From assembly GCF_947539375.1 (NCBI RefSeq), contig NZ_OX443569.1, positions 248,001 through 312,000 of the forward strand: a DNA stretch of 64,000 nucleotides, given 5' to 3'. Both the position numbers and the translations under genes were made by a program. Shown here one piece after another: positions 2,985 to 64,000 of the stretch. The notes beneath the pieces are model-generated. The model made no database searches. It saw nothing but the letters and a program-made list of their open reading frames with translations, and was not told the origin of the DNA. The first letter of the stretch is position 1. Each line of letters begins with the position of its first letter. Source of the DNA: Lactobacillus isalae. Lineage in GTDB: Bacteria; Bacillota; Bacilli; Lactobacillales; Lactobacillaceae.

Positions 2985-3055
2985 TGAAAGTGTTTACATT
3001 ATTTAATAATTAGTATATGCTTTATTTGTGTTGTAAGTAAAGATAATTAACTAAC
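2985..3055 (+). promoter_or_regulatory. cre site, promoter and operator of the glycosidase operon
   Basis: TTTACA (2993-2998), 17 bases and TATGCT (3016-3021) form the promoter. A cre-like CcpA site TGAAAGTGTTTACA (2985-2998, one mismatch to consensus) covers the -35. The operator-like element at 3033-3055 sits downstream of the -10 and matches the one before the EIIC gene, with one change in its palindrome (AGATAATTAACT). The arrangement suggests catabolite repression plus specific repression by the ROK protein; both are inferred from sequence. Confidence 0.65.
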
Positions 3056-3074
3056 TTAAAAAGGAGAAAGCATT

Positions 3075-3962
3075 ATGGCAATCTTAACACTTGACGTAGG
3101 TCAAAGATTTATCCGTTATGGTTTCTTTGATGAAAAAGGAAATTTAACTGAAAAGGGTCAATATCAAGTTCCTAAAAAATCAGCAAAGGATTTTTACGAG
3201 TCTATAGCAGATTTAGTGGACGAAAGTGACATGAAAATTAACGCTATCAGTATTAGTTTTCCAGGTTTTATCAATGTGAAGGATAAAATTGCTATTCGTG
3301 CAGGTTCTTTAAGATTTTTAGACGGACATAATATTAGTGAAGATTTACATCAATATATAAACCAAGACATTGAAATTTTTATTGAGAATAATTCAAATTG
3401 TGCCGCAATCGCAGAAAAACTAAATGGAAATGCCCAAGATGTTAAAGATTTTGTGGTTATTACTTTAGGACATGGCGTGGGTGGTGGAATATTTGTTAAT
3501 GATAAATTATTACGCGGGCCAGGTTATTCTGCGGGTGAATTTGGAATGATGATTACGGATTACTCAGCACATCAATTTATGACAGCACATGAATTAGCAT
3601 CAACATCAGCTTTGATTAACGATTATGCAACTATGCGAGGGGTTCCCAGTGAATTGGTAGAAGATTATCAAGTCATGTCTGAACTTGATAATCCAAAAGT
3701 TCGAAAAGTAGTTAAAAAATGGGCAAATTATGTAGCAATTTGTATTTTTAATTTAGCTTGTACTTTGAATCCAGAGCGATTTTTAATTGGTGGGGCGCTA
3801 AGTCAAAATAATGAATTAATTCCAATTCTTAAAAGTAGACTGGCTCAAATTCCAAATTGGTCAGATTTTGAAACAGAAATTCAATCTTGTCGTTTTTATA
3901 ATGATGCAAGTCTATATGGAGCCTACTGGGCATATATAGGAAGTAAGAAAGATGTATCATAA
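3075..3962 (+). CDS. ROK-family sugar kinase
   Basis: A 295-residue ROK kinase without a DNA-binding domain. It opens with the phosphate-1 motif (LTLDVGQRFIRYGFFDEKG) and has the sugar-binding/phosphate-2 region ITLGHGVGGGIFVNDKLLRG followed by SAGEFGMM. ROK kinases phosphorylate glucose, fructose, N-acetylmannosamine or beta-glucosides such as cellobiose. AAGGAG lies upstream of the ATG. It is the first gene of an operon with three glycosidases and overlaps the GH1 gene by 11 bases. A plausible job is phosphorylating a free sugar or an imported glycoside before or after hydrolysis. The CxCGxxGCxE zinc motif is not evident, as in some small ROK kinases. The substrate is unknown. Confidence 0.8.
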   Translation: MAILTLDVGQRFIRYGFFDEKGNLTEKGQYQVPKKSAKDFYESIADLVDESDMKINAISISFPGFINVKDKIAIRAGSLRFLDGHNISEDLHQYINQDIEIFIENNSNCAAIAEKLNGNAQDVKDFVVITLGHGVGGGIFVNDKLLRGPGYSAGEFGMMITDYSAHQFMTAHELASTSALINDYATMRGVPSELVEDYQVMSELDNPKVRKVVKKWANYVAICIFNLACTLNPERFLIGGALSQNNELIPILKSRLAQIPNWSDFETEIQSCRFYNDASLYGAYWAYIGSKKDVS

Positions 3963-60739: not shown

Positions 60740-61437
60740 TGAATAAGACAGAGCAAGATCAATTAAAAAAAGAAGCAGCTACTAAAGCTGCTAATATGGT
60801 AGAGCCTAATTCTGTTTTAGGAGTTGGAACAGGCTCAACAGTTGCTTTTTTTATCGATGCATTAGGTGAACGCAAAGAAAAAGAAGGATTTAGTTTAAAG
60901 CATATTGTTACTACTTCTAACCGTAGTAAGAAGCAACTTGAAGGACTAGGCTTTAAGGTTGATGAGTTAGCAGATATTGATCAAGCTGATTTAACAGTAG
61001 ATGGCGCTGATCGAGTAGACGATAATTTAGATGGAATTAAAGGCGGTGGTGGTGCCTTAACTTTAGAAAAAAATGTTGCCATCAACTCAAAGAAGATTAT
61101 TTGGATTGTTGATGAATCAAAACTGGTTCACCATCTCAGCGGTTTCCCGCTTCCAGTTGAAGTATTACCAGTATCTGCTGAACAAAACTTTAAACGTTTT
61201 GAAGCTGAAGGTTTGAAGCCTCAATGGCGTTTAGATGATCAAGGAAAGCGTTACGTAACGCACTATGGTAACTACATCATTGATTTAGCTGCTGATCCAA
61301 CCCCAGTACCACATGGTTTAGCTGACTATCTAGATCACACAGTTGGTGTAGTTGAGCATGGTTTGTTTTTAGACATGTGTGATGAAGTCATCATTGCACA
61401 TAGTGATGGTACAATCGAAGACAAGAAGAGAAAATAA
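60739..61437 (+). CDS. rpiA: Ribose-5-phosphate isomerase A
   Basis: A 232-residue RpiA with LGVGTGSTVAFFIDAL (phosphate loop), DLTVDGADRVDDNLDGIKGGGGALTLEK (active-site Asp/Glu) and DESKLV. It interconverts ribose 5-phosphate and ribulose 5-phosphate. It is coupled to rbsK (TAATG) with GGAG upstream, and ended by a terminator. Confidence 0.95.
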   Translation: MNKTEQDQLKKEAATKAANMVEPNSVLGVGTGSTVAFFIDALGERKEKEGFSLKHIVTTSNRSKKQLEGLGFKVDELADIDQADLTVDGADRVDDNLDGIKGGGGALTLEKNVAINSKKIIWIVDESKLVHHLSGFPLPVEVLPVSAEQNFKRFEAEGLKPQWRLDDQGKRYVTHYGNYIIDLAADPTPVPHGLADYLDHTVGVVEHGLFLDMCDEVIIAHSDGTIEDKKRK

Positions 61438-61444
61438 TTAATTT

Positions 61445-61474
61445 GGGCTCATTATAAAAATGAGTCCTTATTTG
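61445..61474 (+). terminator. Terminator after rpiA
   Basis: GGGCTCATT and AATGAGTCC arms with a short A-rich loop, then a T-containing tail. Confidence 0.7.
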
Positions 61475-61502
61475 TTTAACTAATACTAATCAAGGTATAA
61501 AT

Positions 61503-62315
61503 ATGACGATTGGAGAAGCTTTAAAAGCAGAAAGAAAGAGATTGGGATTAAGCCAGTCTCAAATGACAGGAAATTTAATAACGAAATCACATTATTCAAA
61601 AATTGAACGTGGCTTGTTTGACATTAGAACAAATGATTTATTAACAATTTTAAATTTACATAACATTGATGTGGTTGAATTTTTTAAAAAGATTTCTGTT
61701 ACTAATCAAGAAGAAAATACGAAAGCCTATTTAGCACAGCTTCATGCAGCTTATTACACGAGAAATATTGAGAAAATTGAGCAAATTAGTAATAAATTGA
61801 AAAATAAACAACCAAAAACACTAGAGTTAAAAAATTTAGAAGCACAAGCATCTCTTTTAAAAGCTTACTTTACAAACAGTATTGATACATTATCGGATAA
61901 ATCAAAAGAAAATATTAAAAGAATTATTTTTAGTAATGATGAATGGCAAGTAGAAGATTTAAGGCTATTTGCAATTGCTATATCACTTTTTGATATTTCT
62001 GAATTGAATTCGGTGGTAAAATCTATTATTAGTCGCCATTTTAATTTGAATTTGGAAGAAAAGGAATTTAGGTTAGTTTTATCTGCGATACTAGTAAATT
62101 TTTTATCTTATTCTGTTAAAGTTCAAAATTCAGATATTCAATTGATCAAGAAAGTATTTCAGGTACTAGATAATTTAAATGGAGAACCGGATAATTGTTT
62201 TGCAAAATTAATGACTTTATATTATCGAGAATATTTTGCAGAAAATAGCAAAAATATGGAAGAAATTATAAAAGTCATAAGAAATAGCGGAATGGATAAA
62301 ATATTAAAAAAGTAA
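61503..62315 (+). CDS. Rgg/MutR-type regulator
   Basis: A 270-residue protein with an XRE helix-turn-helix at residues about 4-60 (LKAERKRLGLSQSQMTGNLITKSHYSKIERG) and a long all-helical TPR-like C-terminal domain, the architecture of Rgg, MutR and RopB regulators. These bind short intracellular peptides in the C-terminal domain and activate nearby genes. AAGGT precedes the ATG. A perfect palindrome and an 8-codon ORF with a strong ribosome binding site follow, then a lanthipeptide synthetase-like gene. MutR itself activates lantibiotic genes, so this is its probable target. The C-terminus (MDKILKK) is slightly shorter than usual. Confidence 0.85.
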   Translation: MTIGEALKAERKRLGLSQSQMTGNLITKSHYSKIERGLFDIRTNDLLTILNLHNIDVVEFFKKISVTNQEENTKAYLAQLHAAYYTRNIEKIEQISNKLKNKQPKTLELKNLEAQASLLKAYFTNSIDTLSDKSKENIKRIIFSNDEWQVEDLRLFAIAISLFDISELNSVVKSIISRHFNLNLEEKEFRLVLSAILVNFLSYSVKVQNSDIQLIKKVFQVLDNLNGEPDNCFAKLMTLYYREYFAENSKNMEEIIKVIRNSGMDKILKK

Positions 62316-62320
62316 AAATA

Positions 62321-62344
62321 AAAAGTGTTAAATTTAACACTTTT
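62321..62344. terminator. 24-bp perfect palindrome after the Rgg-type gene
   Basis: AAAAGTGTTAAA is followed directly by its reverse complement, then ATTTTTTT. It should terminate the regulator transcript. Its position upstream of the next promoter region (AT-rich, possible -10 TATAAG at 62371-62376) means that it could also be an operator. Confidence 0.65.
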
Positions 62345-62418
62345 TATTTTTTTATAAGAATTAATTTTAATATAAGTACATAAAGAAAGTTAGTTAAAAC
62401 TGAAATGGAGGTATTCAG

Positions 62419-62445
62419 ATGTTTATTCCCTGGTATCCACTTTAA
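62419..62445 (+). CDS. 8-residue peptide ORF, candidate leaderless signal
   Basis: ATG (62419) to TAA (62443-62445) encodes MFIPWYPL. GGAGG (62407-62411) lies seven bases upstream, the best-placed ribosome binding site in this gap. The peptide is short, hydrophobic and aromatic, with no signal sequence and no Ser, Thr or Cys, so it cannot be a lanthipeptide core. Next to an Rgg-type gene it recalls the 8-residue leaderless SIP peptide (MWLLLLFL) that activates RopB in Streptococcus pyogenes. It is directly upstream of the synthetase-like gene. A translational-coupling leader is the main alternative. Confidence 0.6.
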   Translation: MFIPWYPL

Positions 62446-62471
62446 ATAGATGAATTGGTGAGATGATAACG

Positions 62472-63971
62472 ATGAAAATAATGAATATTAATTTGATTAA
62501 GAATATAGAATATGCAGAATTACTATCACAACCGGAAAACTCGAAATTATCAAAATTAATATTAAAAAAATTGAAAAGTTTACCAGATTATGAAGTTAAA
62601 CAAAATAATTTTTTTATAGAATGTATTTCTACTAAAAATATTATGAAAGAACAAGGGTGGAAAATTCATATTTCAGCTTCTAATAATAATTATATCCACA
62701 TTTTAAAAGAAGTAATTAGAATAATAGTTCCACTGAATGTTTCTTTTAAATGGGTTTCTATTAAGAATAGAAATATTATGTTAACCAAAGATTTTTTGAG
62801 AGAACAGGCTGGAAAATTCATTACTATTTATCCTCAGAATAATATTCAGTTTCAAGTTTTATGCAGGATATTTCAAAAAAAATTACGTCAATATAGTGGT
62901 GTTCCTATTTTGACAGATAAGTCTATCGGAAATGTAATATCAATTAGATATGGTGGTTTTAAGAAAATATTGGATTACGATAATGAAGGAGATGGAATAT
63001 ATTGTATAAGAGATACAAACAAAAAATTGGTGTATGACAGAAGAGAAATTGGAATTTATAAGCCTGAGTGGATAACTGAGAATTTTGTAAAACCATTAAA
63101 TAATCTATATCCAAAACAAAAATCTAAGTTATTAGAACAATATAATTTTAAAAATGCACTTCAATTTACTAATTATGGTGGGGTTTATGAAGCAATTCAA
63201 AAGAAAGATAATTTACACGTTGTAATTAAAGAAGCAAAAAAATATTTTGGAGGAAATATATTTAATAATAGTTTCCCTAAGGATGTAAGATCAATTCGTA
63301 GAAATGAATATTTAATTTTACAAAAAATTAGTTTAATAAATGCTACTCCTAAACCAATAAGTTACTTTAAAGAAAAGTCAGGAGATTATCTAGTCGAAAA
63401 ATATGTTAGTGGAGATCTTCTAAGAACATTACGTCTTGAAAATCCATTGTATTATCCAAATGCTACAGAAGATGAGTATAATCAATATTTAAAGAAATTA
63501 TCCCATATATTTTTGGATTTATACTTTAAAATCAATAAAATAAACAAAAATGGGATTATATTAAATGATCTTACGCCAAATAATATTATCGTAGATTTAA
63601 AAACGAATTCAGCTAAAATAATTGATTTAGAAAGTAGTGTTGATCTGTCCTGTGAAAAAACTACCTATCCTTTATTTGTTACGCCGGGGTATTCAGAATA
63701 TTTTTATTCAAAAAAACTTAGCACAAACGATGATTTCTCATGGGTCATGTGTTTAATAGATATGTTGATAGCACGGGCACAACTACTAAATATTAATATT
63801 AAGTTAATAATTCAATCACTAGAATTTTGTAGAGAAATACAAGATTCATGGGCGCAATTATGTACCCATTTAATCTTGTATCTAGAACATTATAAAAATA
63901 ATTCTAAGACACAAAATTGTATAAAAGAAATATTAAGCGATCTAAACAAGGAAATTCAAATTTATGGATGA
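62472..63971 (+). CDS. Class III lanthipeptide synthetase-like protein (lyase and kinase domains only)
   Basis: A 499-residue LanKC/RamC-type protein. The N-terminal domain (residues about 60-205) has GWKIHISA, GKFITIYP, IRYGGF and the DRR...PEWI pattern typical of class III enzymes. The kinase domain (about 230-470) has Lys253 in VVIKEA, a catalytic loop NDLTPNNII (365-373), metal-binding DLE (385-387) and VTPGY. The usual C-terminal LanC-like cyclase is missing; normal enzymes are about 800-900 residues. It should phosphorylate and eliminate Ser/Thr to give dehydro-residues. The ATG at 62472 is used because GGTGAG (62457-62462) abuts the alternative at 62463. The precursor and any cyclase must lie beyond the window. 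Confidence 0.8.
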   Translation: MKIMNINLIKNIEYAELLSQPENSKLSKLILKKLKSLPDYEVKQNNFFIECISTKNIMKEQGWKIHISASNNNYIHILKEVIRIIVPLNVSFKWVSIKNRNIMLTKDFLREQAGKFITIYPQNNIQFQVLCRIFQKKLRQYSGVPILTDKSIGNVISIRYGGFKKILDYDNEGDGIYCIRDTNKKLVYDRREIGIYKPEWITENFVKPLNNLYPKQKSKLLEQYNFKNALQFTNYGGVYEAIQKKDNLHVVIKEAKKYFGGNIFNNSFPKDVRSIRRNEYLILQKISLINATPKPISYFKEKSGDYLVEKYVSGDLLRTLRLENPLYYPNATEDEYNQYLKKLSHIFLDLYFKINKINKNGIILNDLTPNNIIVDLKTNSAKIIDLESSVDLSCEKTTYPLFVTPGYSEYFYSKKLSTNDDFSWVMCLIDMLIARAQLLNINIKLIIQSLEFCREIQDSWAQLCTHLILYLEHYKNNSKTQNCIKEILSDLNKEIQIYG

Positions 63972-63983
63972 TGTGAGTATATT

Positions 63984-64000
63984 ATGTCAAAAAACTTTAA
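63984..64000 (+). CDS. Start of the next gene (cut by window edge)
   Basis: An ATG at 63984 opens MSKNF and runs off the edge. An ATG at 63964, overlapping the synthetase stop, also stays open to the edge, so the start is undecided. Its position suggests an operon partner: a precursor peptide, cyclase or transporter. Nothing more can be said from five codons. Confidence 0.35.

Follow-up and report, generated by a model that had tools for sequence, protein, structure and literature searches.

A leaderless octapeptide as candidate pheromone of an Rgg-type regulator beside a split lanthipeptide synthetase in Lactobacillus

Does the tiny ORF between an Rgg-type regulator gene and a RiPP enzyme gene in Lactobacillus isalae encode a signal for that regulator? 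The window in which it lies, the whole 64-kb stretch of DNA analyzed here, is G000:C1:248001-312000 of a 2.12-Mb genome. By direct reading the usORF (62419-62445, plus strand) is ATG TTT ATT CCC TGG TAT CCA CTT TAA, eight codons and a stop, coding for the proposed leaderless pheromone MFIPWYPL. Its Shine-Dalgarno (SD) sequence, GGAGG (62407-62411, plus strand; a 6-nt match as GGAGGT), is separated from the ATG by 7 nt. The Rgg gene (61503-62315) precedes the usORF and half of a class III lanthipeptide synthetase (62463-63971) follows it. The anatomy described in the original prediction, a tiny ORF with GGAGG, 7-nt spacing, an immediate stop and Rgg and RiPP-enzyme flanks, was found in full at 62407-62445. 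On both strands of the window only three ATG usORFs combine 6-12 aa, an SD match of at least 6 nt and a spacing of 5-10 nt, and MFIPWYPL is one of them. Eight codons also agree with the length criterion for a leaderless communication peptide (LCP; about 8-10 aa, without a leader) and GGAGGT with the criterion of a strong Shine-Dalgarno.

The regulator, encoded on the plus strand, is a 270-aa protein of the Rgg/GadR/MutR family with an HTH_3 domain and is the proposed cytosolic receptor and activator. Its C-terminus matches TIGR01716 RGG_Cterm with 40.7 bits (cut-off 36.9; E 2e-10), inside the E < 1e-5 for the adjacent receptor of LCP systems, and its profile A1 matches the solved Rgg-type regulators 4ryk, 7zcv, 10lg/6w1e and 4yv6. 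The putative operon, read beyond the window end in L003, has the order rgg, usORF, lyase-kinase, LanC-like cyclase, putative precursor and ABC exporter. The 502-aa lyase-kinase (62463-63971, plus strand; its start may be 62472) carries Pfam RamC_N (lyase) and Pkinase domains and aligns to positions 33-468 of the 833 in NF038151 (280.5 bits, cut-off 575). The 370-aa cyclase (plus strand, 63964-64000 and on past the window, L003:6964-8076) is over the cut-off of Pfam LANC_like, overlaps the lyase-kinase gene by 8 bp and aligns to positions 519-833 of the same 833 (114.9 bits, cut-off 575). Lyase, kinase and cyclase domains are thus all present, in two genes that are each below the cut-off, and since the regions to which these align in the class III LanKC model complement one another, they look like a split class III synthetase. 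They are followed by a putative precursor of 45 aa ending HFASSLSCGCSAFH (L003:8092-8229), for which no Pfam or NCBIfam match was found at E 0.01, and by a 524-aa ABC exporter (L003:8298-9872). L. xujianguonis has the same lyase-kinase/cyclase split, with the cyclase itself in two frames, and a precursor core (FASSLSVGCSVG) similar to that of the window.

We consider leaderless MFIPWYPL to be probably the cognate ligand of the adjacent Rgg, which would activate and autoinduce the lanthipeptide operon via a palindrome. MFIPWYPL would be translated as a ready-made signal peptide, exported, taken up again and bound by the Rgg. Peptide-bound Rgg would then sit on the palindrome at 62325-62340, at the end of rgg and just upstream of a weak promoter, and activate one transcript. 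That transcript would encode MFIPWYPL itself, giving positive feedback, together with the split class III synthetase including its cyclase, the precursor and the ABC exporter. Anatomy, conservation at the peptide level, a palindrome of the receptor clade and joint decay in two genomes are documented at the sequence level; translation, binding, activation, a single transcript, export and re-uptake are inferred.

To follow the usORF across related loci, searches covered 75 genomes of the genus with the window Rgg itself and 301 genomes of the family with a profile, and census loci were fetched from the upper part of the matches listed. Restricting proteins to 230-330 aa and removing entries that shared both protein end and flank gave 168 loci (149 Lactobacillaceae, 19 Streptococcus); they hold near-duplicates from sister species, and the window copy is represented by the G069 copy. 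In the 168-tip tree the window Rgg belongs to a clade of 18 tips (support 0.977). Eight of these 18 loci encode, in the equivalent position and orientation 66-109 nt past the rgg stop, a usORF with the motif M-(0-2)-P-x-[FYW]-P. The motif was defined after the peptides were seen and the shuffles ignore relatedness; it occurred in none of 9,000 shuffled regions (18 loci x 500 dinucleotide shuffles). Among the 150 other Rggs there is one more motif usORF, MYPTFPRFP.

The identical MFIPWYPL is encoded in G069, a near-identical MAG, and the exact peptide was seen only in these two near-identical genomes. Elsewhere in the clade the usORFs read MDPWYPL (with only a 4-nt SD match) and MGPWFPL at two loci of L. 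hamsteri, MYPWFPL and MIPWYPCPGC... at two of L. xujianguonis, MYPLFPF in L. johnsonii ATCC 33200, MGPCFPL in G059 and MFIPCYPL in L. taiwanensis (no SD match). One usORF of L. xujianguonis runs on (MIPWYPCPGCLIFRKKMNLLL) and has a poor ribosome site. The Rggs beside the recurring motif usORFs have diverged to 33-43% identity to the window Rgg, and for the first conserved Pro all four Pro codons (CCC, CCG, CCA and CCT) are used. These comparisons support a usORF that is conserved at the peptide level as partner of the window-type Rgg. An intact motif usORF is missing in 10 of the 18 clade loci, MAG G070 (MFIPWYLL, without GGAGG) among them. For the other nine, the ORF list gives genes of transporter size or further ORFs, with no neighbour resembling a synthetase; most of these entries come without a library scan.

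A stricter SD test (ATG, 6-18 aa, SD match of at least 5 nt, start 50-120 nt downstream of rgg, same strand) is passed by five of the 18 clade loci, against 0.37 expected in shuffles. Such usORFs stand downstream of 29 of 148 fetched Lactobacillaceae Rggs, a count that omits one locus with <200 nt downstream; the shuffles gave a mean of 3.3 and a maximum of 6 (20 shuffles). In control placements they number 1 of 148 on the opposite strand, 2 of 147 upstream on the same strand and 1 of 147 upstream and divergent. Of 31 in the census, 24 begin 75-104 nt after rgg. The wider group falls into three peptide classes, P-x-[FY]-P, LPVLP-like (e.g. MIIVTLPVLPKSN) and MDLLRxVIII-like. Class, likewise labelled after the peptides were seen, tracks the Rgg tree with 3 changes over 31 labelled tips (shuffled mean 14.6, minimum 10), to which shared descent contributes. 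Related Lactobacillus species most likely hold sister systems with signal words of their own.

MDLLRxVIII-like usORFs of 14-17 aa were seen behind another group of Lactobacillus Rggs (L100, L096, L103, L185, L186, L189, L194, L199). Plasmid-borne Rggs with 25-30% identity to the window Rgg are also followed by usORFs with purine-rich AAGGAG sites (3 records): MIIVGYPVLPE in L. kefiranofaciens ZW18, MKPEDVVIIVIKG in L. paragasseri JV-V03 and MTWWQ, with a AAAAGGAGG site, after rgg 3001-3843 of L. johnsonii FI9785 p9785L (L243). The five-residue MTWWQ is perhaps a still shorter signal of the leaderless kind. An ORF of this size had been expected to go unannotated, and in the 3 plasmid records checked, out of 39 with an Rgg match, the gene tables, which are incomplete, list none of these sister usORFs.

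The proposed operator is the palindrome GTGTTA-AATT-TAACAC at 62325-62340, the core of a full perfect palindrome spanning 62316-62349. GTGTCA-N4-TGACAC with at most 2 mismatches (at least 10 of 12) is found in all 18 clade loci, in none of the 131 other fetched Lactobacillaceae Rggs and in 2 of 3600 shuffles. Measured from the end of the rgg stop, its first base falls between 12 bases upstream and 24 bases downstream, and in five loci (L069, L070, L071, L074 and L075) it straddles the stop, so that the same bases encode the last residues of the regulator and the proposed binding site. Within the clade the half-site is conserved and the spacer and flanks are variable, and in some loci the following T-run is short or missing; this speaks for a protein-binding site rather than a terminator alone. 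The palindrome could still be only a terminator, or it may be both the proposed Rgg operator and the rgg terminator.

A promoter may follow at a fixed distance. Thirteen of 18 loci have a TATAAT-like hexamer (at most 1 mismatch) that starts 32-36 nt from the centre of the palindrome; the runner-up among the 5-nt bins has 9. In the window weak -10-like bases, TTTAAT/TAATAT (62366-62373, plus strand), are 33-35 nt from the centre, and a promoter scan of this region was at chance level (3 found, 2.6 expected). In the nine loci measured, among them MAG G070, the usORF ATG is 70-94 nt from the centre. Different palindromes are present at the rgg stop in some loci of other classes, such as TTTTCAAATATGAAAA (MDLLR peptides) and AAATTTGCAAATTTGCAAATTT (LPVLP peptides); in other loci of those classes no palindrome of note was found.

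We also examined how the module is gained and lost. An alignment of this region from L. johnsonii and L. gasseri genomes had been suggested as a check, and as worded it would fail, the site being empty in L. johnsonii ATCC 33200 and in its near relatives G023 and G059. In these three, RpiA, which stands beside the module, is 99% identical, and rpiA is followed by a 307-aa ORF, by its look a putative nucleoside hydrolase, whose place in the window is behind the exporter. The rgg-to-exporter module is therefore missing as a unit in three of five genomes compared, with G069 and L. taiwanensis holding rgg there. The lanthipeptide enzymes are gone from the locus in L. taiwanensis and MAG G070, and no cyclase match was found in either (G070 is 71% complete). 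L. taiwanensis keeps rgg and the exporter, its usORF having no GGAGG and having lost the tryptophan (MFIPCYPL), and in G070 the GGAGG is lost and the peptide reads MFIPWYLL. In both genomes, so far as their sequences record it, ribosome site and peptide have decayed together with the loss of the enzymes. The L. taiwanensis relict (L066; L007:1200-1500) also has the start of the synthetase gene directly abutting the apparent end of the precursor core.

The usORF ends 17 nt before the synthetase start, and short leader ORFs are common before operons. It could thus be a cis-acting leader, an upstream ORF that couples or attenuates lanKC translation, with a peptide that has no role in trans. We regard this as unlikely, as the motif tracks the Rgg clade while the next gene changes. 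The gene downstream at L071 has as its best models ATP-grasp ribosomal peptide maturases, under their cut-offs; L076 has a lactococcin-972 (Lcn972) family bacteriocin, over its cut-off; L077 a 46-aa ORF and an ABC exporter; and L068 and L075 ABC exporters (L068 by homology in the first residues). At L083, of another peptide class, a lantibiotic dehydratase and a LanC-sized protein follow. This variety of genes after the usORF indicates a peptide that follows the regulator and not one enzyme. The distance from usORF to next ORF varies as well, from tens to hundreds of nt, and no credible Rfam element was found in the intergenic region (the one match has E 0.9 and 14.3 bits, the gathering score being 117).

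The window genome contains a second Rgg-usORF system at G000:C1:1765748-1769006 (L086:9390-14007). It has two rgg genes, MVIIVLPVLPHDFNK and a putative precursor MKNLKVNQVRNLRRLPKAAVANNGPRLCGYTCSKTC, belongs to another peptide class and includes a complete 866-aa synthetase of class III/IV type that is under the cut-offs of both models.

It is similarly improbable that the Rgg answers another, leadered peptide of the SHP/ComS type, or none, with the usORF product having some other role in the lanthipeptide pathway. Leadered SHPs are usual for many characterized streptococcal Rggs, according to the part of PMC13361665 consulted, and the window receptor is about equally far from RopB (15-19%) and from other streptococcal Rggs (13-19%). 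Against this, the gaps around rgg yielded no SHP-like ORF that has a good ribosome site, and 24 of 31 census usORFs begin 75-104 nt after rgg. Nine ORFs of 12-45 aa with SD matches of 4-5 nt occur in 61053-62900; eight are inside rpiA, rgg or lanKC, which leaves MEVFRCLFPGIHFK (62405-62449), an ORF overlapping the usORF, with an SD match of 4 nt. It is highly improbable that the usORF has its ATG and ribosome site by chance, for although it is just 27 nt and a single genome cannot exclude chance, the eight of 18 clade loci against none of 9,000 shuffled regions, together with the peak at 75-104 nt, indicate that it is beyond chance.

With MFIPWYPL retained as the probable ligand, we examined how close its receptor is to RopB. 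Across 284 genomes of a single genus, assumed to be Streptococcus, the SIP-type usORF pattern was found at 8 loci, which served as RopB references; 395 genomes of the order gave none. All eight adjoin a divergent Rgg, and the eight SIP-linked RopBs form their own clade (support 0.998) in the 168-tip tree. The window clade sits inside a 137-tip clade free of Streptococcus (support 0.981), in a tree with long branches and no targeted sampling of Lactobacillaceae from the published RopB clan. The window Rgg accordingly lies outside the clade of sampled RopBs. Over the alignment, the window-type Rgg is 15-19% identical to the eight SIP-linked RopBs and 13-19% to 11 other streptococcal Rggs.

The BLASTP criterion for the RopB clan is at least 25% identity with at least 70% mutual coverage, and the values here are of query coverage, with S. 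pyogenes RopB not told apart among the queries. Among the matches listed, the single alignment of a SIP-linked RopB with the window-type Rgg gives 26.5% over 170 aa, 57% of the query and so below the coverage limit, and elsewhere in the window clade L067 has 25.3% at a query coverage of 73% assembled from two pieces. The remaining rows each fail one limit among the matches listed (best 3 targets per query). The gene order is likewise not that of the RopB clan, the window genes being co-directional and an upstream divergent usORF occurring at 1 of 147 Lactobacillaceae Rggs. The proposal of a Lactobacillus counterpart of RopB-SIP therefore holds for a peptide-level partner of an Rgg that comes first in a lanthipeptide operon, and not for a close RopB relative or for the gene order. 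Given a RopB-like anatomy and a separate receptor clade, the system would work like RopB-SIP while not being a shown member of the RopB clan.

On balance we lean towards the view that Lactobacillus has a large radiation of leaderless pheromones of its own, apart from the RopB clan. Words of 5-18 residues would be encoded downstream of, and co-directionally with, Rggs, at least some classes having a receptor-class palindrome at the rgg stop, and chemically unrelated bacteriocin and RiPP clusters would be switched on by them. Rggs would in that case have acquired leaderless signalling, by origin or by spread, on more than one occasion. Genes for leaderless pheromones escape gene callers. Such a second lineage would provide many natural receptor-peptide-operator triples for specificity work and would name a synthetic octapeptide inducer that might wake silent bacteriocin clusters.

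Six peptide strings were not found in the literature searched, and the window system is undescribed among the literature matches listed (titles and abstract starts). The main text of PMC10518010, so far as available, does not contain 'Lactobacillus', 'johnsonii', 'gasseri' or 'crispatus', and its supplements may list single Lactobacillus peptides; it does name the Lactobacillaceae among the families with LCPs. In many characterized streptococcal Rggs the signal is a leadered SHP (PMC13361665, in the part consulted). Like the Rgg/SHP and ComRS systems, the window has an Rgg-type receptor with an adjoining peptide gene; it differs in a peptide without leader or processing site. The TGACAC-like half-site and the P-aromatic-aromatic run resemble ComR boxes and XIP peptides. 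The enzymes resemble class III LanKC in having a RamC_N lyase, kinase, cyclase, putative small precursor and ABC exporter, and differ in that two overlapping genes encode lyase-kinase and cyclase separately, both of them below the NCBIfam LanKC cut-off.

The nearest parallel is with RopB-SIP and the LCPs, as described in the accessible part of PMC10518010 (Aggarwal et al. 2023). Shared with them are an 8-aa hydrophobic leaderless ORF with an immediate stop and strong SD, an adjacent Rgg-type receptor, an inverted repeat upstream of the peptide ORF and a biosynthetic cluster as likely target. The window system differs in its P-x-[FY]-P code and its co-directional genes, peptide and receptor genes of the RopB clan being predominantly divergent, and its GTGTTA-AATT-TAACAC compares with published LCP half-sites of GTTACGTNT (9-7-9) and ATGTAACATATT (12-4-12). 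The same source gives the export and import route of leaderless pheromones as unknown and reports that in S. salivarius the same kind of circuit as we propose here has been proven for an LCP.
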